Origin: Haloferax litoreum
GTDB lineage: Archaea; Halobacteriota; Halobacteria; Halobacteriales; Haloferacaceae
Length of the DNA: 64,000 bases
Direction of reading: 5' to 3'
Assembly (NCBI RefSeq): GCF_009674605.1
Contig: NZ_WKJO01000001.1
Span: 992,001 to 1,056,000 of the forward strand
The position numbers and the translations under genes are program-made. The notes beneath the pieces were generated by a model. That model was not told the origin of the DNA. It saw only the letters and a list, made by a program, of their open reading frames with translations, and made no database searches. The first letter of the stretch is position 1, and every line of letters begins with the position of its first letter. Shown piece by piece: positions 6,753-56,640 of this stretch.

Positions 6753-7802
6753 ATGAAACTCGAACTCGACAGCGTGTCGAAGCGCTACGGGACCGCGACG
6801 GCACTGGATTCGGTATCGCTCACCGTCGACGATGGCGAGTTCTTCACGCTCGTCGGCCCCTCCGGGTGCGGGAAGACGACGACGCTCCGGTGTATCGCCG
6901 GATTCGAGTCGCCGACTGAGGGCACGGTTCGCTTCGACGGCGAGTCGATGGACGGGGTTCCACCCGAAGCGAGGGGGGTCGGTGTCGTGTTCCAGAACTA
7001 CGCGCTGTTCCCGCACATGAGCGTCGGCGAGAACGTCGCCTACGGACTCAGGTTCGTGGACCCACCCGGTGGGGTCACCCGCGACGAACGCGTCGAAGAA
7101 CTCCTCAAACTCGTGGACCTCGCAGGGTTCGAGGACCGCGAACCCGACTCCCTCTCCGGCGGGCAACAACAACGTGTCGCCCTCGCGCGCGCCCTCGCAC
7201 CCGGTCCGGCCATCCTCCTCCTCGACGAACCCATGTCGGCGCTGGACGCCCGTCTACGTGAGCGACTCCGCCAACAGGTCAAGCGCATCCAGTCGGAACT
7301 CGGTGTCACGACAGTCTACGTCACCCACGACCAATCGGAAGCACTGGCAGTCTCTGACCGCGTCGCCGTCCTCAACCGCGGGCGCGTCGAGCAAGTCGGT
7401 GAACCCCGCGACGTGTACCATCGGCCTCGAACTGAGTTCGTCGCAGAGTTCGTCGGCGAGAACAACGTCCTCCACGGAGTCGTGGAGTCTCGACTGGAAG
7501 CAGAGGGGGTCGAAGTGGACGTGGATGGACACTCGTTCATCCTCGACGGCGTCGACAAATCGGCCGGTGAGTCACTCACGTTCTGTGTCCGCCCGGAGAA
7601 CCTTCGGGCCGGTACCGAGACGAACCAGATTCGTGGGACCATCACCGGCACGGAGTTCCAGGGTGCGACCACCCGTCTCGGACTCGACTGGAAGCAGACC
7701 GACGTGACCGTGGTCGTCGCGGACGACGGCGACACCACGTTCGAGGTCGGTCAAGAACTCGTCGTCGGGTTCGACCCCGACGCGGCACACGTCGTAGCGT
7801 GA
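6753..7802 (+). CDS. ABC transporter ATP-binding protein, probably thiamine
   Basis: About 349 residues. Walker A GPSGCGKTT (about 34-42), Q-loop, signature LSGGQQQ, Walker B ILLLDEP, D-loop SALDA, switch His in VTHDQ, then a C-terminal regulatory TOBE-like domain, as in PotA/FbpC/ThiQ importers. I start it at MKLELDSVSKRYG, preceded by the Shine-Dalgarno-like GGAGGG at 6741. An in-frame ATG at 6618 overlaps the permease stop (ATGA) but would add 45 basic, low-complexity residues before the domain. Confidence 0.88.
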   Translation: MKLELDSVSKRYGTATALDSVSLTVDDGEFFTLVGPSGCGKTTTLRCIAGFESPTEGTVRFDGESMDGVPPEARGVGVVFQNYALFPHMSVGENVAYGLRFVDPPGGVTRDERVEELLKLVDLAGFEDREPDSLSGGQQQRVALARALAPGPAILLLDEPMSALDARLRERLRQQVKRIQSELGVTTVYVTHDQSEALAVSDRVAVLNRGRVEQVGEPRDVYHRPRTEFVAEFVGENNVLHGVVESRLEAEGVEVDVDGHSFILDGVDKSAGESLTFCVRPENLRAGTETNQIRGTITGTEFQGATTRLGLDWKQTDVTVVVADDGDTTFEVGQELVVGFDPDAAHVVA

Positions 7803-11082: not shown

Positions 11083-11102
11083 CTCCAGTCGAAACGAAGG
11101 GG
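11083..11102 (+). repeat. ORB-like element outside the origin
   Basis: Matches the best origin copy (24749-24768) at 16 of 20 positions, with the 12-base half GAAACGAAGGGG perfect. It lies in the intergene between the small membrane peptide and the 3' end of the ferredoxin gene, 12.6 kb from the origin core. Confidence 0.5.
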
Positions 11103-14516: not shown

Positions 14517-14536
14517 CCCCTTTGTTTCAAGTGGAG
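14517..14536 (-). repeat. ORB-like element beside tRNA-Gln
   Basis: Matches origin ORB 24749-24768 at 17 of 20 positions on the minus strand. A degenerate partner in the opposite sense lies at 14479-14498: its first 14 bases match the origin copy at 24400-24419 (minus strand). Both are in the intergene after cgi121, about 9 kb from the origin core. Confidence 0.55.
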
Positions 14537-14583
14537 ACGAGGGGGCGACGGGTCGCCCTGTCAGGTGTAAAACACAGAGAAGT

Positions 14584-19555: not shown

Positions 19556-19575
19556 TTCGAGTGGAAGCGAAGGGG
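19556..19575 (+). repeat. weak ORB-like sequence
   Basis: 15 of 20 matches to the origin ORB, the GCGAAGGGG end being best preserved. Lies in the 97-bp convergent intergene of the GNAT gene and polD1. Could be chance. Confidence 0.25.
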
Positions 19576-19632: not shown

Positions 19633-21189
19633 TCAGGAGAACTTTCTGACCGTCATGTTCAGCGTGTCGAGGTCCACGATAGGCGCGTACCCCGAGTCGG
19701 GGTCGATGTTGACGGACTTCTGGAAGTCGGTCTGTGACTGCCAGCACCCGGAGTTGACCGCGAGGACGTTGTGGTACTTGCCCCACCCGAGTTTGTGGAC
19801 GTGGCCGGTGTGGAAGATGTCCGGCACCTGCTCCATGACGAGGTAGTCGAGTTCCTCGGGCGCGAGGCGCGTGTGGCCACCGAACTGCGGCGCGACGTGG
19901 CGCTTCTTCAGCAGTTGGTACATCGCCTTGTGGGGTTCGTCGTAACTCGCCTTCTCCGCGGGGAGTTCGGCGATAACCTCGTCCAGCGAGACGCCGTGGT
20001 ACATGAGGATGTTGACGCCTTCGAGCGTGACCATCGAGGGGTTGCTCGTGATTGTGGCGTCGTGCGCAGACATGATGTCGCGGAGTTCGTCGTCGAATCC
20101 GGGTTGCGGTTCCGCGAGGCGAACCGCGTCGTGGTTGCCGGGAATCATCACGATGTCGAGGTCACCGGGGACGGACTTGAGGTGCTCTGAGAACGCCTCG
20201 TACTGGTCGTAAATGTCGATGACGTCGAGTTCTTCGTCCTGATTCGGGTAGACACCCACTCCTTCGACCATGTCGCCGGCGATGAGGAGGTACTCGATGT
20301 TCGCCGCCTCTTCTGTGTGTAGCCAATCGGCGAACCGGTCCCACGCTTCCGCCATGAACTCCTGACTGCCGACGTGCACGTCGGAGATGAGCGCCGCCTG
20401 CACGTGGCGGTCCGCGGTGTTCGGCTTGTGACCACGGGGAACGTCCGGGAAGTGCATCGAGTCGACGAAGAGGATACCTGCGTCTCCAGAGAGCGTCCCC
20501 TGAACCGCGATGCACTCGTCCATGAGGAGTTCGTCGACGTACGCAGCGATGTCCTTGTCCTTCATCACGAGACACGGGAACGTCCCCGTCGTGTCTTCGA
20601 GTTCGACAATCCAGTGACCGCTCTTGGTCGAGCGAACGTCGTTGACGAGGCCGACGAGTTCTGCGTCCTCGCCGCCGGACATCTTGGAGATGGCCTTGGC
20701 CGGGCGGTGGTTGACGCGCCCGCGGAGCATCTTCGAGAGTTTCTCGTACCGGTCGCGGAACACCTTCACGAAGTCGTCGTACTCGCCGGTTCCAGTCGAC
20801 TGGCCGGTCATGTCGTTCGCAATTTCGAGTGACCGGAGCGCCGGGTCCGTGTTACGTCCGCTCCACGACCCCTTCGCTTCAGGTGGAGTTGTATCGCCGA
20901 CAGGTTCGGTCTCGTCGTTCGATGTTGCAGGGGAAACAGAGGGGTCTCTCTCGGGCGCACCGCTCGTAGGTGCGACCTCGGGCGGGTCCGCCTCGGGTGT
21001 AGACGCGAGCACCCCGCGGACGTGGTCGGCAGTGATTCGAAGCGCGTCGTCCGGGGCTGACTCGACGACTTGGGCGAGTGTCACGCCCGGGTCGTCCGAC
21101 CCAGCGATGAGCGTCACGGCCTCACGTTCTGCGTTGTAGCCGCGACTGACGAGTGCCCGGACGATGCGCGCCGGCGTCTCCAGTGGCAC
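19633..21189 (-). CDS. polD1: DNA polymerase D small subunit DP1 (proofreading exonuclease)
   Basis: About 518 residues from a GTG start (VPLETPARIVRALVSRGYNAE). N-terminal helical domain, a Pro/Thr/Ser-rich acidic linker (about 75-160), an OB-fold (VSTKSGHWIVELEDTTGTFPCLVM) and a calcineurin-like Mre11-type nuclease (ALISDVHVGS; LIAGDMVEG; IPGNHDAV; MYHGVSLDE; GHTRLAPE; HTGHVHKLG). It partners DP2, encoded elsewhere. The GTG start fits the conserved N-terminal helix and leaves 79 bp to the divergent signal peptidase. The linker contains an ORB-like sequence. Confidence 0.95.
   Translation of the reverse strand: MPLETPARIVRALVSRGYNAEREAVTLIAGSDDPGVTLAQVVESAPDDALRITADHVRGVLASTPEADPPEVAPTSGAPERDPSVSPATSNDETEPVGDTTPPEAKGSWSGRNTDPALRSLEIANDMTGQSTGTGEYDDFVKVFRDRYEKLSKMLRGRVNHRPAKAISKMSGGEDAELVGLVNDVRSTKSGHWIVELEDTTGTFPCLVMKDKDIAAYVDELLMDECIAVQGTLSGDAGILFVDSMHFPDVPRGHKPNTADRHVQAALISDVHVGSQEFMAEAWDRFADWLHTEEAANIEYLLIAGDMVEGVGVYPNQDEELDVIDIYDQYEAFSEHLKSVPGDLDIVMIPGNHDAVRLAEPQPGFDDELRDIMSAHDATITSNPSMVTLEGVNILMYHGVSLDEVIAELPAEKASYDEPHKAMYQLLKKRHVAPQFGGHTRLAPEELDYLVMEQVPDIFHTGHVHKLGWGKYHNVLAVNSGCWQSQTDFQKSVNIDPDSGYAPIVDLDTLNMTVRKFS
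20869..20888 (-). repeat. ORB-like element inside polD1
   Basis: 18 of 20 matches to the origin ORB at 24749-24768. It encodes PPEAKGSW in the disordered linker of DP1, where sequence is free to vary. About 3 kb from the nearest core ORB. Confidence 0.55.
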
Positions 21190-21268
21190 ACGGCGAAATC
21201 GGCGGAGCGGAGCAAAAAGGGTGCCGAAACCCAGAACGTTGAAACCCAGTCCGGGTAAATTGGGAGTG

Positions 21269-22081
21269 ATGAGTGCCGACGACGGTCCCCCGGTCCCCAA
21301 ATCTTCACGGGGTGGGTCCGACCCCGACGAAGGGTTGCTCAAGCGACTTCGAACGGCGGAAGACGGCCCACTCCTGTTCATCCGCGAAGCACTGATTAGT
21401 GCCTTCGCGGTGCTCGCTGTCGGCTTGTTCCTGTTCGCCGTCAGTGGTGTCTGGCCACCAATGGTCGCTGTCGAGAGCGGCAGCATGGAACCGCACATGC
21501 ACAAAGGTGACCTCGTGTTCATCACTGGACCGGAGCGATACGCGCCCGACGCGGCAGTCGAAGGCACGTCCGTCGTCACCGCCGAAGTCGGTGCCGACGT
21601 CGGCTATCGAACGTTCGGCGGCGACGGTAGCGTCATCGTCTACGACAATCCGGGCGTCGGGGGCCCACCCATCATCCACCGCTCGATGCTGTGGGTCGAA
21701 GAGGGTGAAAACTGGTACGACAGGGCCAACCCCGACCACATGTCGGCGAGCAACTGTCAGCAACTCACCCACTGTCCGGCACCCTACGACGGGTTCATCA
21801 CCAAAGGCGACAACAACGCGCGCTACGACCAGGTGAGCGGTATCAGCGAACCCGTCCGCCCCGAGTGGGTCCAGGGCGTCGCCCGCATCCGCATCCCGTT
21901 CCTCGGGTGGGTTCGCCTGACTCTCGCGAGCACCATGTCGACGGCGACACCGGTGACGCCAGTGACTGTCGAACAAGTACCTGCTTCAGTCGTGCAGGCA
22001 CCTGTTCCAGTCGAACAAGCACTCTCGGCCTCGATGGCCAACGACCCGGTCCACGTCGCCCAGTCGTCGCTGGCAGCGTGA
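21269..22081 (+). CDS. sec11: signal peptidase I, Sec11 type
   Basis: About 270 residues. One N-terminal membrane anchor (about 37-60), then catalytic Ser in VESGSMEPHM (Ser about 72), GDLVFI, the His-containing PPIIHRSM and the acidic box TKGDNN. Use of His instead of Lys as general base is the archaeal/ER Sec11 type. Removes Sec signal peptides on the outer face. A second hydrophobic stretch IRIPFLGWVRLTLAS is followed by a Val/Pro/Gln-rich tail built from a roughly 10-residue repeat (VEQVPAS, VEQALSA). Symbol at family level; H. volcanii has two Sec11 paralogues. Confidence 0.9.
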   Translation: MSADDGPPVPKSSRGGSDPDEGLLKRLRTAEDGPLLFIREALISAFAVLAVGLFLFAVSGVWPPMVAVESGSMEPHMHKGDLVFITGPERYAPDAAVEGTSVVTAEVGADVGYRTFGGDGSVIVYDNPGVGGPPIIHRSMLWVEEGENWYDRANPDHMSASNCQQLTHCPAPYDGFITKGDNNARYDQVSGISEPVRPEWVQGVARIRIPFLGWVRLTLASTMSTATPVTPVTVEQVPASVVQAPVPVEQALSASMANDPVHVAQSSLAA

Positions 22082-22132: not shown

Positions 22133-23734
22133 TCAGTTATCGAACCGCGCCTGCACGAACGGTTGGGCGCTCTCGATGTCACCGAGACGCGAGTCCGTGA
22201 GTAAGACGGCTTCCGTCTCGTCGATGGGAACGGAGAGGCTGATTTCTTTCGTCCGACCGTAGCGTCCCTTCGAGACGACGACGGCGTTGACGATGCCGAG
22301 CATGTCGAGTTCCGAGATGAGGTCCGTGACGCGACGCTGCGTGAGCACGTCGGCGTCTATCTCCTCGCAGAGGCGCTTGTAGATGTTGAACACCTCGCCG
22401 GTGTTGATGTTGCGAACACCGTTCTTCTCGAGGAGGATGATAGCGAAGAGGACGATTTTCGACTGCGTGGGTAGCGTCCGGACGACTTCGACGACCCGGT
22501 CCAGTTCTATCTTGTCCTGCGCCTGCCGGACGTGTGCCTCTTCGACGGTGTCGGCCTGTCCGCGCTCGGCGAGTTCGCCCGCAGTACGGAGCAAGTCGAG
22601 GGCACGGCGGGCGTCACCGTGTTCCTGCGCGGCGAACGCGGCACACAGCGGGATGACGTCGTCGGTCAGCGCGCCGCCTTTGAACGCGACGTCGGCGCGG
22701 TGTTGGAGGATGTCTCGAAGTTGGTTGGCGTCGTACGGCGGGAAGACGATTTCTTCCTCGCCGAGACTCGATTTGACCCGCGGGTCGAGGAAGTCAGTGA
22801 ACTTCAGGTCGTTCGAGATACCCATGATAGAGATACGCGAGTTGTCGAGTTCGGAGTTCATCCGCGAGAGGTTGTAGAGCGTGTCGTCGCCGGATTTCTC
22901 GACGAGTTTGTCGATTTCGTCGAGCATGATGACGACCACGCGCTCTTTGTAATCGACGGCGTCGAAGAACGTCGTATACACTCGGTCGGTGGGCCATCCG
23001 GTCATCGGCACCGTCTCCATCTCGTCGGCGTCGTTCGAGAGTTCCTCGGCCCGTTCGTCTATCTCTGCAATCGAATCGTAGGGGGTGTCCGCGAGCGCGT
23101 TCGGGTCTTCTGTCGCCCGCGTGCGCATCTCGTCGAGACGGTCGAGTTCCGCCTCGATTCGTTCGAAGTTCTTCTCGATGAACTTGTTCGCGAGTTGGGC
23201 GAGGACACGATACTGCGTGTCCGTCACCTCGCAGTTGATGTACTCGACTTCACACGGCACGTCGTACTTCTGCGACGTCGATTCGAGTTCCTGACTCACG
23301 AACTTCGCGCTCGCAGTCTTTCCGGTCCCGGTCTTCCCGTAGATGAGAATGTTCGACGGCGTCTCCCCCCGTAGCGCAGAGACGAGAATCGTCGCCATCT
23401 GGTTGATTTGGTCGGTACGGTGGGGGAGTTCGTGCGGCGTGTACGACGGCCGAAGCACCTCCTTGTTCTCGAATATCGGTTCTCCGGCGAGAAGGTCGTC
23501 GAACAACCCTTTCGACTCGTCGTCGTCGTTCAACACAACCTTGTCGAGTCCGACGTCGGGGTCTTTGTGCTGGTCGACGTCGACGTCGTCCTCGTCTGGA
23601 ACGTCGGCATCGGGGCCGATGCTCGCCTGGATGTCGATATCCTCGGCGGATACGTCGGTCGGTTCTGCGTCCCGTGCAGAACTATCCGCTTCTTCTGCCC
23701 GGTGACCACCTTGTGAATTGTCGTCCTCACCCAT
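22133..23734 (-). CDS. orc1: origin recognition protein Orc1/Cdc6
   Basis: About 533 residues. A 90-residue acidic N-terminal extension, then the AAA+ domain with Walker A YGKTGTGKTAS (about 132-142), Walker B VVIMLDEIDKLV, sensor 1 ISIMGISNDL, arginine-rich sensor 2 (HGDARRALDLLR), and a C-terminal winged helix that reads ORB DNA. Binds origin boxes and loads MCM. It is transcribed away from the origin, and an ORB overlaps its promoter 8 bases before the ATG. Confidence 0.95.
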   Translation of the reverse strand: MGEDDNSQGGHRAEEADSSARDAEPTDVSAEDIDIQASIGPDADVPDEDDVDVDQHKDPDVGLDKVVLNDDDESKGLFDDLLAGEPIFENKEVLRPSYTPHELPHRTDQINQMATILVSALRGETPSNILIYGKTGTGKTASAKFVSQELESTSQKYDVPCEVEYINCEVTDTQYRVLAQLANKFIEKNFERIEAELDRLDEMRTRATEDPNALADTPYDSIAEIDERAEELSNDADEMETVPMTGWPTDRVYTTFFDAVDYKERVVVIMLDEIDKLVEKSGDDTLYNLSRMNSELDNSRISIMGISNDLKFTDFLDPRVKSSLGEEEIVFPPYDANQLRDILQHRADVAFKGGALTDDVIPLCAAFAAQEHGDARRALDLLRTAGELAERGQADTVEEAHVRQAQDKIELDRVVEVVRTLPTQSKIVLFAIILLEKNGVRNINTGEVFNIYKRLCEEIDADVLTQRRVTDLISELDMLGIVNAVVVSKGRYGRTKEISLSVPIDETEAVLLTDSRLGDIESAQPFVQARFDN

Positions 23735-23742
23735 CGTGAATA

Positions 23743-23762
23743 CCCCTTCGTTTCAATTGGAA
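23743..23762 (-). repeat. origin recognition box overlapping the orc1 promoter
   Basis: 18 of 20 matches to the ORB at 24749. It lies only 8 bases upstream of the orc1 ATG, where an initiation complex would have to sit, so bound Orc1 could repress its own gene. Confidence 0.8.
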
Positions 23763-24399: not shown

Positions 24400-24419
24400 C
24401 CCCTCCATTTCGTGTGGAA
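24400..24419 (-). repeat. origin recognition box, divergent copy
   Basis: 16 of 20 matches to the ORB at 24749. The variant core CCCCTCCATTTC is repeated at 24479-24490 as a shortened copy. Confidence 0.7.
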
Positions 24420-24478: not shown

Positions 24479-24498
24479 CCCCTCCATTTCCCCTGCAA
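24479..24498 (-). repeat. half ORB
   Basis: Carries CCCCTCCATTTC identical to the neighbouring divergent box but lacks the GTGGAA half. It may be a mini-ORB or a decayed copy. Confidence 0.4.
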
Positions 24499-24553: not shown

Positions 24554-24573
24554 CCCCTTCGTTTCGGGTGGAG
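24554..24573 (-). repeat. origin recognition box, left of the unwinding element
   Basis: 18 of 20 matches to the ORB at 24749 in opposite orientation. Preceded by a C-run that forms the G-string side of the box. It sits immediately left of the AT-rich unwinding region. Confidence 0.85.
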
Positions 24574-24748: not shown

Positions 24749-24768
24749 TTCCACCTGAAACGAAGGGG
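24749..24768 (+). repeat. origin recognition box, right of the unwinding element
   Basis: TTCCACCTGAAACGAAGGGG, followed by TGGGGGTG (G-string). Used here as the reference copy; it faces the box at 24554 across the AT-rich segment. Confidence 0.88.
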
Positions 24769-24967
24769 TGGGGGTGTTCCCCCCGGCCCGTTTCTCGTCC
24801 GTCGCCACTCACACTCGTCGAGTTCCGACTCGAGAACCCGTCAGGTCGTCGGTCTGGTTCACTGTTCGACGAAACAGGCTCACTTTCACGCCGTCGTGGG
24901 TTACACCCTCTCTTCGTGTCAGTCGACGTTCCAGCGAGACGACCTGCACGTGGACACGGCGTAGATG

Positions 24968-25033
24968 TACGCTTTACTGGTCCCACCCACGATAAACGTC
25001 TACGCTTTACTGGTCCCACCCACGATAAACGTC
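24968..25033. repeat. perfect 33-bp tandem duplication
   Basis: Unit 24968-25000 is repeated exactly at 25001-25033; it contains CTTTACTGGTCCCACCCACG and ends GATAAACGTC. A third partial copy, CGATAAACGTC, follows at about 25045-25055. Two identical copies imply a recent event or strong conservation. Confidence 0.9.
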
Positions 25034-26404: not shown

Positions 26405-27409
26405 ATGCCACATCAATGCACGACGTGCGGTAAGGTGTTCCCCGACGGCTCGAAAGAGATGCTCTCGGGGTGCCCGAGCTGCGGCGGTAACAAATTTCAG
26501 TTCCAACCCGCGTCTAGCGCCGGCGGCACTTCCGCCGACGCCGCGGGGGGCAGTGACGACACTCGTTCGCAGCACGGCGCCGGAACGCGGGACTTGACGT
26601 CCTCTGCGGCCGACGCCGTCCGTGAACGAGCGACAGAGACAGACTCCCGTCCCGATACCGGTGACGAGGAAGTAACGGTCAGCGACTGGGTGAACTCCAA
26701 GCGAGAGTCTGGAGCACCGGCAGACGCCGCCAGACCTGATTCGTCGCGTGCGTCGTCGACTGACGCGTCGACCGGTCCCGCGAATGGTTCACCGAACGAA
26801 CCTGCGAGTGATTCACCGAGTGCACCATCTGGTGAGTCGAGTAGCGACGACGCGTCTCGCGGATGGGGCGAGTGGCCCACTGCGCCGAACAGTCCGTCAG
26901 AGACCGAACCCGAACCCCCTCGTGGCACCGCCGCACGCGAAGCGACGAGGTCGGAAACAGCAGGGTCGTCGGACCACGCGCCGCACATCCGCGCACGAGA
27001 GACGGACGAAGACACCTCTCAGAAGAGCGCTCGAAGCGACGTGGTCACGCCGGAGGAACTCGCTGCTGCCGGTGCGAACCACCGTGAGTCCACCGACCAA
27101 CCCGAACCCGGTGTCGCTGCGTCAGACCGTAACGAGACGCCAGACGAAGCGTCTGCACGACAGACTGCCCCGCCGGACGTCGACGGGACGACAATCGAAC
27201 CGTCGTCCGACGAGCGTCCTGACCTCGACCAACTCCGCGAGGAACTCAACGACCAGTTCGAGAGCATCAAGATTGTCAACCCCGGCCAGTACGAACTCAA
27301 CCTCATGGAACTCTACGACCGAGACGAGTACATCATCTCGCTCCGTGAGGATGGCCGGTACGTCATCGAAGTCCCCGACTCGTGGGGTCCTGGGTCGCGA
27401 GAAGACTAA
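26405..27409 (+). CDS. oapC: zinc-ribbon protein OapC with long acidic linker
   Basis: About 334 residues. N-terminal zinc ribbon (CTTCG near 5-9 and CPSCGG near 23-28), a linker of some 220 residues rich in Ser, Asp, Pro, Thr and Ala with no predicted structure, then a conserved C-terminal domain (LDQLREELNDQFESIKIVNPGQYELNLMELYDRDEYIISLREDGRYVIEVPDSW). The C-terminal block is what the family shares; the linker is lineage specific. Same transcription direction as oapAB, 49 bp downstream. Confidence 0.82.
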   Translation: MPHQCTTCGKVFPDGSKEMLSGCPSCGGNKFQFQPASSAGGTSADAAGGSDDTRSQHGAGTRDLTSSAADAVRERATETDSRPDTGDEEVTVSDWVNSKRESGAPADAARPDSSRASSTDASTGPANGSPNEPASDSPSAPSGESSSDDASRGWGEWPTAPNSPSETEPEPPRGTAAREATRSETAGSSDHAPHIRARETDEDTSQKSARSDVVTPEELAAAGANHRESTDQPEPGVAASDRNETPDEASARQTAPPDVDGTTIEPSSDERPDLDQLREELNDQFESIKIVNPGQYELNLMELYDRDEYIISLREDGRYVIEVPDSWGPGSRED

Positions 27410-27729: not shown

Positions 27730-30300
27730 ATGCCGGCCTCTGAGGACGTCGCGTACGTCGACCACCCGCTACTCGTCCCGTCGTTCATCGAGCGACGACT
27801 CTATCAGATTCGACTCGCAGGCGCTGCACGCGACGACCACACCCTCGTCTGTCTCCCGACCGGTCTCGGAAAGACGACGGTCAGTCTCCTCGTCACCGCC
27901 GAACGACTGTACGAAGTCGGTGGCACGTCGCTGTTTCTCGCCCCGACGAAACCGCTCGTCCAACAGCACGCAGACTTCTACCGTGAGGCCCTCACCATTC
28001 CCGACGACGAAATCGTGGTCTTCACCGGCGACGTTCGGCCCGATGACCGGGCCGAACTCTGGCAAGACGCCCAGATAGTCATCGCGACGCCGCAGGTCAT
28101 CGAAAACGACCTCATCGGGAACCGAATCTCGCTCAGTGACGTGACGCACCTCACGTTCGACGAGTGCCACCGCGCCAGCGGCGACTACGCGTACGTCTAC
28201 ATCGCAGAGCGCTACCACGCCGACGCCGAAAACCCGCTCGTCACGGGGATGAGTGCGTCACCCGGTGGCGACCAAGAGGCCATCCTCGAAGTGTGTGAGA
28301 ACCTCGGTATCGCCGACGTCGAGGTGATGACCGAAGGTGACGCCGACGTCGACGAGTACACGCACGACACCGACGTGGAGTGGAACCGCATCCAACTCCC
28401 CGACGAGATACTGGTGATTCGCGACGCGCTCAACGAGGTCATCACCGACCGACTGGAGAAACTCAAGCAGTTGGGCGTCGCGCGTTCGACTAACCCGGAC
28501 GTCTCACAGAAAGACCTCAACCGAATGCGGGCGGAACTCCAGCGCCTGATGAACGCCGACAAGTCTGAGGGCTACAAGGGGATGTCGACGCACGCGGAGG
28601 TGATGAAACTCCGGCGTGCGGTCGAACTCGTCGAGACGCAGTCCGTCGAGTCCGTCCGGCGCTACTTCGAACGCCAGCGAAACGCGGCCCGGTCGTCCGG
28701 GGCGTCGAAGGCGAGTCAGCGACTCGTCGCGGAACCCAAAGTTCGGGAAGCGATGCGAAAAGCGGAGTCGTTCGACGGACTCCACCCGAAGTTCAGGAAG
28801 ACGCGCATCCTCCTCGCCGAGACACTCGGTATCCACGACGGGGAACGCGTCATCGTGTTCACCGAGTCGCGCGACACCGCCGAGGCGTTGACCGAGTTCC
28901 TCTCTGAGAACTTCTCTGTCCGCCGATTCGTCGGACAAGGTGACCGCGAGGGGTCCGACGGAATGTCCCAGAAGGAACAACAGGAGACACTCGACAAGTT
29001 CCGGAGCGGCGAGTTCGAAGTCCTCGTCTCCACGTCCGTCGCAGAGGAGGGACTGGACGTGCCGGAAGTCGACTTGGTGCTCTTCTTCGAACCGGTGCCG
29101 ACGGCCATCCGGTCCATCCAGCGGAAAGGCCGAACTGGTCGGCAGGCAGACGGCCGCGTGGTCGTCCTCCTCGCCGAAGACACGCGCGACGAGGCGTACT
29201 TCTGGATATCGCGCCGACGCGAGAAGACGATGCAGAACGAACTGCGCGAACTCAAGGGTGCTGCGGCGGATATCGAGGCCGAACTCGACCACTCACAGCG
29301 TGACCTCGCGGCGTTCGCAGGAGGAGAATCCACCGGAAACGAAGGGGGTGACGCCACGACGAACGCAAAAGCGGAGAGTGAACCTGTCGACTCCTCACCC
29401 GATGAGGCTTCCGAAACTGTCGCTGCTGCGAGCGCGAAGAACGGACAGTCCGGCCTCGCCGACTTCGGTCCTTCAGACGAGCAGTTGGCACGGGCCGAAC
29501 CCAGCGACGAGTCCGACGAGCACCCCGACAACGCGGAGGCCACGGGAGACGAACCCACTGGCGACACTGACGACGTGAACGGCGACGCCGGCGACGACGA
29601 CTCGACAGTAGACGACCAGACGGGAACCATCGCGACGGCCGGGGCCGACGACGGCGTCGAAATCGTCGTCGACCAGCGCGAACTCGATTCGAACATCGCG
29701 CGCACCCTCTCGAAGCGAGAGGACTTGACGACGCGACTCGAAACGCTCGCCGTGGGCGACTACGTCCTCTCCGACCGCGTCGCAGTCGAGCGAAAGAGCG
29801 TCTCGGACTTCCTCGACACGCTCACGGGTGGCGACCGCTCACTATTCGAGCAAATCGCCGACCTGACGCGCCACTACGCCCGCCCGCTTCTCATCGTCGA
29901 GGGCCGGGGCCTCTACGAAGAACGGAACATCCACCCCGGAGCGATTCGCGGCGCACTCTCGTCTGTCGCCGTCGACTTCGGCGTGAGCGTCCTCTTCACC
30001 GAAGACGAAGACGACACCGCAGAGATGCTCGCGACCATCGCCACGCGCGAACAGACCGACCGAGAGCGGAACGTGAGCGTCCACGGCGGCAAGAGCGCGA
30101 AGACGCTCGACGAACAACAGGAGTACGTCGTCTCCGCCATCGCCGACATCGGTCCCGTCACCGCGCGAACGCTCCTCGAAGCGTTTGGGAGTGTGGAAGC
30201 GGTGATGACCGCGAACGAAGACGACTTGCAGGAAGTCCGTGGCGTCGGCGCAGTCACCGCCGAGCGAATCCGAGAAGTCATTGGGTCGGAGTATCGCTGA
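27730..30300 (+). CDS. hef: Hef helicase-nuclease (XPF/FANCM family)
   Basis: About 856 residues. SF2 helicase: Walker A PTGLGKTT (about 43-50), DECH box (144-147), motif VI (QRKGRTGRQ), with the Hef-specific helical insert between lobes. A 120-residue acidic linker follows, then the XPF nuclease (GDYVLSDRVAVERKSVSDFL, catalytic ERK near 687-689) and tandem HhH (IADIGPVTARTLLEAFGSVEAV; VRGVGAVTAERI). Acts on stalled forks. Both catalytic modules look intact. The linker carries an ORB-like sequence. Confidence 0.95.
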   Translation: MPASEDVAYVDHPLLVPSFIERRLYQIRLAGAARDDHTLVCLPTGLGKTTVSLLVTAERLYEVGGTSLFLAPTKPLVQQHADFYREALTIPDDEIVVFTGDVRPDDRAELWQDAQIVIATPQVIENDLIGNRISLSDVTHLTFDECHRASGDYAYVYIAERYHADAENPLVTGMSASPGGDQEAILEVCENLGIADVEVMTEGDADVDEYTHDTDVEWNRIQLPDEILVIRDALNEVITDRLEKLKQLGVARSTNPDVSQKDLNRMRAELQRLMNADKSEGYKGMSTHAEVMKLRRAVELVETQSVESVRRYFERQRNAARSSGASKASQRLVAEPKVREAMRKAESFDGLHPKFRKTRILLAETLGIHDGERVIVFTESRDTAEALTEFLSENFSVRRFVGQGDREGSDGMSQKEQQETLDKFRSGEFEVLVSTSVAEEGLDVPEVDLVLFFEPVPTAIRSIQRKGRTGRQADGRVVVLLAEDTRDEAYFWISRRREKTMQNELRELKGAAADIEAELDHSQRDLAAFAGGESTGNEGGDATTNAKAESEPVDSSPDEASETVAAASAKNGQSGLADFGPSDEQLARAEPSDESDEHPDNAEATGDEPTGDTDDVNGDAGDDDSTVDDQTGTIATAGADDGVEIVVDQRELDSNIARTLSKREDLTTRLETLAVGDYVLSDRVAVERKSVSDFLDTLTGGDRSLFEQIADLTRHYARPLLIVEGRGLYEERNIHPGAIRGALSSVAVDFGVSVLFTEDEDDTAEMLATIATREQTDRERNVSVHGGKSAKTLDEQQEYVVSAIADIGPVTARTLLEAFGSVEAVMTANEDDLQEVRGVGAVTAERIREVIGSEYR
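29328..29347 (+). repeat. ORB-like element inside hef
   Basis: 18 of 20 matches to the origin ORB plus one more G of the G-string. Located in the disordered linker between helicase and nuclease (ESTGNEGG), about 4.6 kb from the core on the oap side. Confidence 0.55.
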
Positions 30301-56620: not shown

Positions 56621-56640
56621 TTCGACTCGAAACGAGGGGG
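56621..56640 (+). repeat. distant ORB-like sequence
   Basis: 16 of 20 matches to the origin ORB with GAAACGA intact; 32 kb from the core, in an intergene. Could be chance at this score. Confidence 0.35.

Follow-up and report, generated by a model that had tools for sequence, protein, structure and literature searches.

Conserved ORBs without an extended G-string are scattered over tens of kilobases around oriC1 in haloarchaea

Dispersed ORBs around oriC1

The chromosomal region around oriC1 in Haloferax carries, outside the origin core, a halo of about eight ORBs that occur singly or in pairs between about -26 and +33 kb relative to the origin. It is very probable that these ORBs form a genuine set maintained by selection. 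One reading, to which we assign a probability of about 0.55, is that haloarchaea possess a selected oriC1 domain of tens of kilobases containing isolated canonical ORBs that lack the extended G-string, so that the same Orc1 would both fire the origin and mark or meter the domain, with some of the ORBs lying inside coding linkers of the replication genes hef and polD1. On this reading, the same organization probably exists in other Halobacteriota. The motif, its clustering, its conservation, and a two-tier difference in the G-string are directly observed and are described below.

The window analyzed here is the whole 64,000-nucleotide stretch of a Haloferax chromosome (G000:C1:992001-1056000), and all genome statistics derive from pattern searches. 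With up to 3 mismatches allowed, TTCCANNNGAAACGAAGGGG matches the window 14 times, whereas 0.12 matches are expected, and none of 100 shuffles reached 14. Across the 3.56-Mb genome, 12 of the 13 matches with at most 2 mismatches are concentrated in a 59-kb stretch around oriC1 (C1:989607-1048640), with reversed-pattern controls giving 0 to 2 matches genome-wide. When the exact oriC1 ORB was used as the pattern at up to 3 mismatches, all 8 matches in the genome lay inside 32 kb. The excess over expectation and the genome-wide clustering together rule out a chance origin of the matches.

oriC1 is located between a GTPase gene and the Cdc6/Orc1 initiator gene orc1 (22133-23734, minus strand; Pfam Cdc6_C, Cdc6_lid, and AAA), and the window also holds polD1 (19633-21579, minus strand) and oapC (near 26405-27409, plus strand). 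The right core ORB, TTCCACCTGAAACGAAGGGG (24749-24768, plus strand), is directly followed by the extended G-string TGGGGGTG and is invariant at its scored positions in 10 Haloferax species, and the left core ORB, CTCCACCCGAAACGAAGGGG (24554-24573, minus strand), is followed by TGTGGGGG. On its orc1 side, the origin has two weaker ORBs (24400-24419 and 24479-24498, both minus strand), which are present in most Haloferax species. A further ORB, TTCCAATTGAAACGAAGGGG (23743-23762, minus strand), lies just upstream of the orc1 start codon and has no mismatch to TTCCANNNGAAACGAAGGGG; it is conserved in 10 Haloferax species, has equivalents in many haloarchaea and methanogens, and is a possible autoregulatory site. 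Just past oriC1, at about 24965-25033, a stretch of roughly 35 bp, tacgctttactggtcccacccacgataaacgtc, is duplicated in tandem.

The halo sites occur in genes, in gaps between convergent genes, and in intergenic regions alike, and on both strands. For orthologous sites in up to 10 Haloferax species, motif identity was 0.89 to 1.00, compared to 0.39 to 0.85 for the 30-bp flanks. Four noncoding sites, each retained in 9 Haloferax species, are as well conserved as the copy in hef described below. The ORB TTCGAGTGGAAGCGAAGGGG in the gap between two convergent genes (19556-19575, plus strand) has a motif identity of 0.97 against 0.43 and 0.52 in its flanks, and an intergenic ORB at 14517-14536 (minus strand), which forms a dyad with an overlapping weaker one at 14526-14545 (plus strand), shows 0.96 against 0.65 and 0.79. 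The intergenic ORB CTCCAGTCGAAACGAAGGGG (11083-11102, plus strand) shows 0.97 against 0.73 on either side, and the outer intergenic ORB TTCGACTCGAAACGAGGGGG (56621-56640, plus strand), found at +33 to +42 kb, shows 0.94 against 0.40 and 0.59.

One match was excluded from the halo. Read in frame, the match at 6958-6977 specifies PPEARGVG of an ABC transporter ATPase, and other genera carry the identical DNA string, so we interpret this match as a coincidence of coding. It remains counted in the genome-wide density figures given below. Two simple origins of the set were also ruled out, namely, spread by copying of oriC ORBs, as the flanks have nothing in common with oriC or with each other, and oriented Chi- or KOPS-like sites, as sites on either side of the origin occur on both strands and are restricted to the origin region.

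The site in the hef linker

The helicase-nuclease gene hef (27730-30300, plus strand; Pfam DEAD, Helicase_C, ERCC4, and HHH) hosts a halo ORB, ATCCACCGGAAACGAAGGGG, in its linker at 29328-29347 (plus strand). The original prediction of an ORB-like element here was borne out, as the site is identical at 18 of 20 positions to the perfect oriC1 ORB at 24749-24768 (plus strand), with the half said to be intact, GAAACGAAGGGG, present unchanged and a single mismatch out of 17 to TTCCANNNGAAACGAAGGGG. The site was also thought to retain its G-string, which is correct only for the canonical GGGG; the extended haloarchaeal G-string TGGGGGTG is missing, with GTGACG instead. The site thus has the TTCCA...GAAAC core followed by GGGG of a canonical archaeal ORB, with variants among the 10 species, and the linkage to its cognate orc1 and oriC1, lying 4 to 6 kb from orc1 in Haloferax, but lacks the extended haloarchaeal G-string that follows GGGG in origin ORBs. 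Nor is it part of an origin-type inverted pair flanking an AT-rich element beside orc1, being a single ORB in a linker.

The linker, described earlier as nonconserved, proved hypervariable, and the site lies in frame within G-E-S-T-G-N-E-G-G. The cross-species comparison that had been proposed for this site shows its 20 bp kept in 10 Haloferax species while the surrounding linker is rich in indels and substitutions, so that the site clearly withstands the refutation by sequence that had been set for it; at the same linker position in these species, motif identity is 0.90 against 0.49 and 0.59 for the flanks. The codons TCC ACC GGA ... GGG are invariant across the 10 species despite the linker indels, so that in a synonymous-codon test 4 of 4 columns were invariant against a base rate of 23%. 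Taken alone, this test is only suggestive, because a longer codon-invariant run, of five columns, exists elsewhere in hef. Outside the site, at 29446-29469, the Hef linker contains QSGLADFG, which resembles a PCNA-interaction (PIP) box and is kept in most of the aligned Haloferax species.

The hef ORB is confined to Haloferax, where hef is ∼5 kb from orc1. In the other genera, hef is separated from orc1 by 14 kb to about 1 Mb and contains neither the ORB nor the peptide. The tie between the ORB and a short hef-orc1 distance points to selection by proximity to the origin and not by the Hef protein. The polD1 and hef copies do straddle the origin as first proposed, at about -3.8 and +4.7 kb, respectively, but the two sites singled out belong to a larger set.

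An inverted ORB pair within polD1

The polD1 linker carries two halo ORBs as an inverted pair, the left member at 20869-20888 (minus strand) and, 56 bp from it, a weaker right member at 20925-20944 (plus strand) with 3 mismatches. In the genome of this Haloferax, the pair is partially degenerate. This arrangement recurs across the haloarchaeal class, usually 56 bp apart and with a spacing that is always in frame. The pair encodes DPSVSTG ... PVETKGS within otherwise unalignable sequence, using codons that are rare in reference genes (GTT, 8%; CCA, 7%; ACT, 10%). Judged from the sequence, the pair is strong evidence for selection on DNA within a gene, and it is arguably a stronger case than the hef site.

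The extended G-string distinguishes two tiers of ORBs

At 25 named haloarchaeal loci, where the core pair was chosen by mismatches alone, the extended G-string was present in 49 of 50 origin-core ORBs and in none of the 59 other, halo ORBs. In Haloarcula hispanica, oriC1 no longer functions when the extended G-string is mutated (PMC3936714). Halo ORBs, the hef site included, are without it and are therefore predicted to bind Orc1 yet not to form origins. The difference provides a sequence rule by which origin and non-origin ORBs can be told apart, and origin prediction should benefit from it as well.

Distribution in haloarchaea and in the phylum

With orc1 positions mapped independently of the ORB matches, the matches were found to gather around orc1 in 12 Haloferax genomes, in 14 other genera of the family, and in a class-wide sample. 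Outside the origin core, the matches in 10 Haloferax genomes numbered 59 at no more than 50 kb from orc1 and 19 in the remainder, a 118-fold difference in density, and 28 other haloarchaeal genomes had 71 and 43, respectively, a 53-fold difference. These values are conservative, since contig breaks in draft assemblies place some true neighbors in the "elsewhere" class; related genomes in the counts are not independent. Density was ∼235 per Mb at 2.6 to 5 kb from orc1, 0 to 13 at 40 to 50 kb, and 2.6 per Mb at 50 to 100 kb, with a background of ∼0.5 per Mb elsewhere in the genome. Two sampled genera (G021 and G081) had no noncore site within 50 kb at the stringency used. The size of the halo differs between genera, and the positions of its sites turn over from one genus to another while the array persists.

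Of 18 genomes from other classes of the phylum in which orc1 had been mapped, at least 11 had ORB-like sites a few to tens of kilobases away from it. This survey used a looser ORB pattern and was tallied by eye, and there were fewer sites per genome. Individual nonhaloarchaeal members of the phylum with ORB-like sites near orc1, sparser than in haloarchaea, include G120, G124, G129, G132, G134, and G137. Separately, a TTGCAGGCGAAAYGAAGGGG-like site occurs at a distance from oriC1 in several Haloferax species (G099:C54:228544, G076:C19:151877, G097:C45:215324, G103:C2:1123413, and G100:C1:449167), the distance being about 190 kb in G100.

Possible roles of the halo

How the halo would act is a matter of inference, and the sequence data are unable to decide between the proposal that follows and its rivals. 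We tentatively propose, with somewhat less than even confidence, that the halo is a local titration sink or antenna for Orc1 that limits initiation; Orc1 binding, titration, and the effect on initiation are all inferred, without binding data. Orc1, produced from the gene adjoining oriC1, would bind the halo boxes as well as the origin. Lacking both the extended G-string and an unwinding element, the halo boxes would not support initiation, but they may retain Orc1 near the origin. They would also be the first sequences copied upon origin firing, and we suggest that their doubling would therefore lower free Orc1 at the daughter origins and limit reinitiation. The proximity of the sites to the origin, the turnover of positions with the array kept, the non-origin type of the sites, and the ORB at the orc1 start fit such a role. 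Of the features of a known titration locus, extra initiator boxes outside the origin are present, whereas a dense local cluster is not, the sites being 2 to 13 kb apart or paired. Against a sink or antenna, Orc1 binding and genetic data are lacking, a set of about eight sites is small relative to an unknown Orc1 copy number, the halo varies in size, and titration needs no strict proximity to the origin, the E. coli datA locus being distant. Because H. volcanii tolerates the deletion of orc1 in the laboratory (PMC2841640), any role of the halo is not essential there.

Isolated sites 2 to 13 kb apart on both strands, a steep fall beyond about 45 kb, indifference to genes, convergent gaps, and intergenic regions, and an array that is kept while its positions change between genera would also be expected if Orc1 on dispersed ORBs bridged or condensed the oriC1 region as an origin-domain or segregation mark, in the manner of parS/ParB/SMC. 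We regard this as rather unlikely, as a segregation role of Orc1 is not known and no contact-map or binding data exist.

The polD1 pair faces outward like the oriC1 core and is found class-wide, which would suit an auxiliary role in initiation or helicase loading, whereby halo ORBs, especially this pair, recruit MCM and thereby create backup origins or a wide zone of initiation. Such a role seems quite improbable, since halo ORBs mostly occur alone, with no unwinding element identified next to them, and none of the 59 carries the extended G-string that is essential at oriC1 in H. hispanica. Equally doubtful is that the sites constitute an Orc1 regulon, acting as operators for orc1 itself and the neighboring replication genes. 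The widely conserved ORB that immediately precedes the orc1 start codon and a conserved TTAAAC-like stretch preceding the 11083 site speak for operators, but promoters are not located where several of the sites are, inside hef or polD1 or, for the 19556 site, between the ends of convergent genes; a promoter-only role of the halo was set aside because sites are also within genes and convergent gaps.

Haloarchaea have many Orc paralogues, 16 in H. volcanii (PMC2841640), and one of these, or another DNA-binding protein, might recognize the halo sites instead of Orc1. We consider this very unlikely given that the motif is the oriC1 ORB itself, clustered at orc1 and oriC1, and that linkage specificity has been reported for Orc families and their ORBs (PMC3528665). 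Coincidence or protein-coding constraint, by which the hef match would be a chance match or a conserved peptide, was already disfavored and is barely tenable: Haloferax does conserve the peptide STGN(E/G)G, hef has its second codon-invariant run, and the 6958 match is truly coding, but 14 matches against 0.12 expected, their genome-wide clustering, the absence of the peptide from other genera, and the equal conservation of noncoding halo sites stand against it.

Relation to known systems and significance

The halo sites resemble haloarchaeal oriC1-family ORBs in having TTCCANNNGAAACGAAGGGG with GGGG and linkage to orc1 but differ in being kilobases away from the origin, alone or paired, and in lacking both an unwinding element and the extended haloarchaeal G-string. 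A precedent for extra ORBs outside an origin is oriC2D of Haloarcula hispanica, where 11 ORBs downstream of cdc6E repress oriC2, likely by initiator titration (PMC3936714). oriC2D is, however, a dense cluster in one 722-bp intergenic region serving Cdc6E and oriC2, whereas the halo sites extend over tens of kilobases, partly within genes, and belong to the universal oriC1 and Orc1.

In bacteria, a review (PMC5295017, citing Okumura 2012) states that removing all six DnaA-box clusters outside the Bacillus subtilis origin leads to early initiation, and the primary paper that it cites terms these clusters oriC-proximal. The likeness lies in initiator boxes outside the origin; the boxes bind bacterial DnaA, form clusters rather than single sites, and are not homologous to the halo. 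E. coli datA is likewise an initiator-binding locus that restrains initiation, but it is a single distant locus with a specialized DnaA-inactivating role and is not homologous either. Bacterial parS sites form a similar scatter of isolated short sites over tens of kilobases around oriC, within and between genes, but involve ParB and another sequence, and evidence for segregation is absent for the halo.

Papers on haloarchaeal origins, including PMC3936714, describe ORBs at origins and beside cdc6 genes, oriC2D among them. In the open literature, outside which several key papers lie, we found no description of ORBs dispersed over tens of kilobases around oriC1 or within hef or polD1.

To our knowledge, what limits initiation at oriC1 in archaea is poorly understood, and little is known of how archaeal origin domains are organized. 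The conserved scatter of ORBs around oriC1 suggests a hidden layer of control over the start of DNA replication. The halo also offers, in the absence of binding data, a case of regulatory DNA maintained in the disordered linkers of replication proteins. As the sites are conserved and discrete, several of them can be recoded silently, and the genus is genetically tractable, questions of initiation control and of the origin domain become directly testable.
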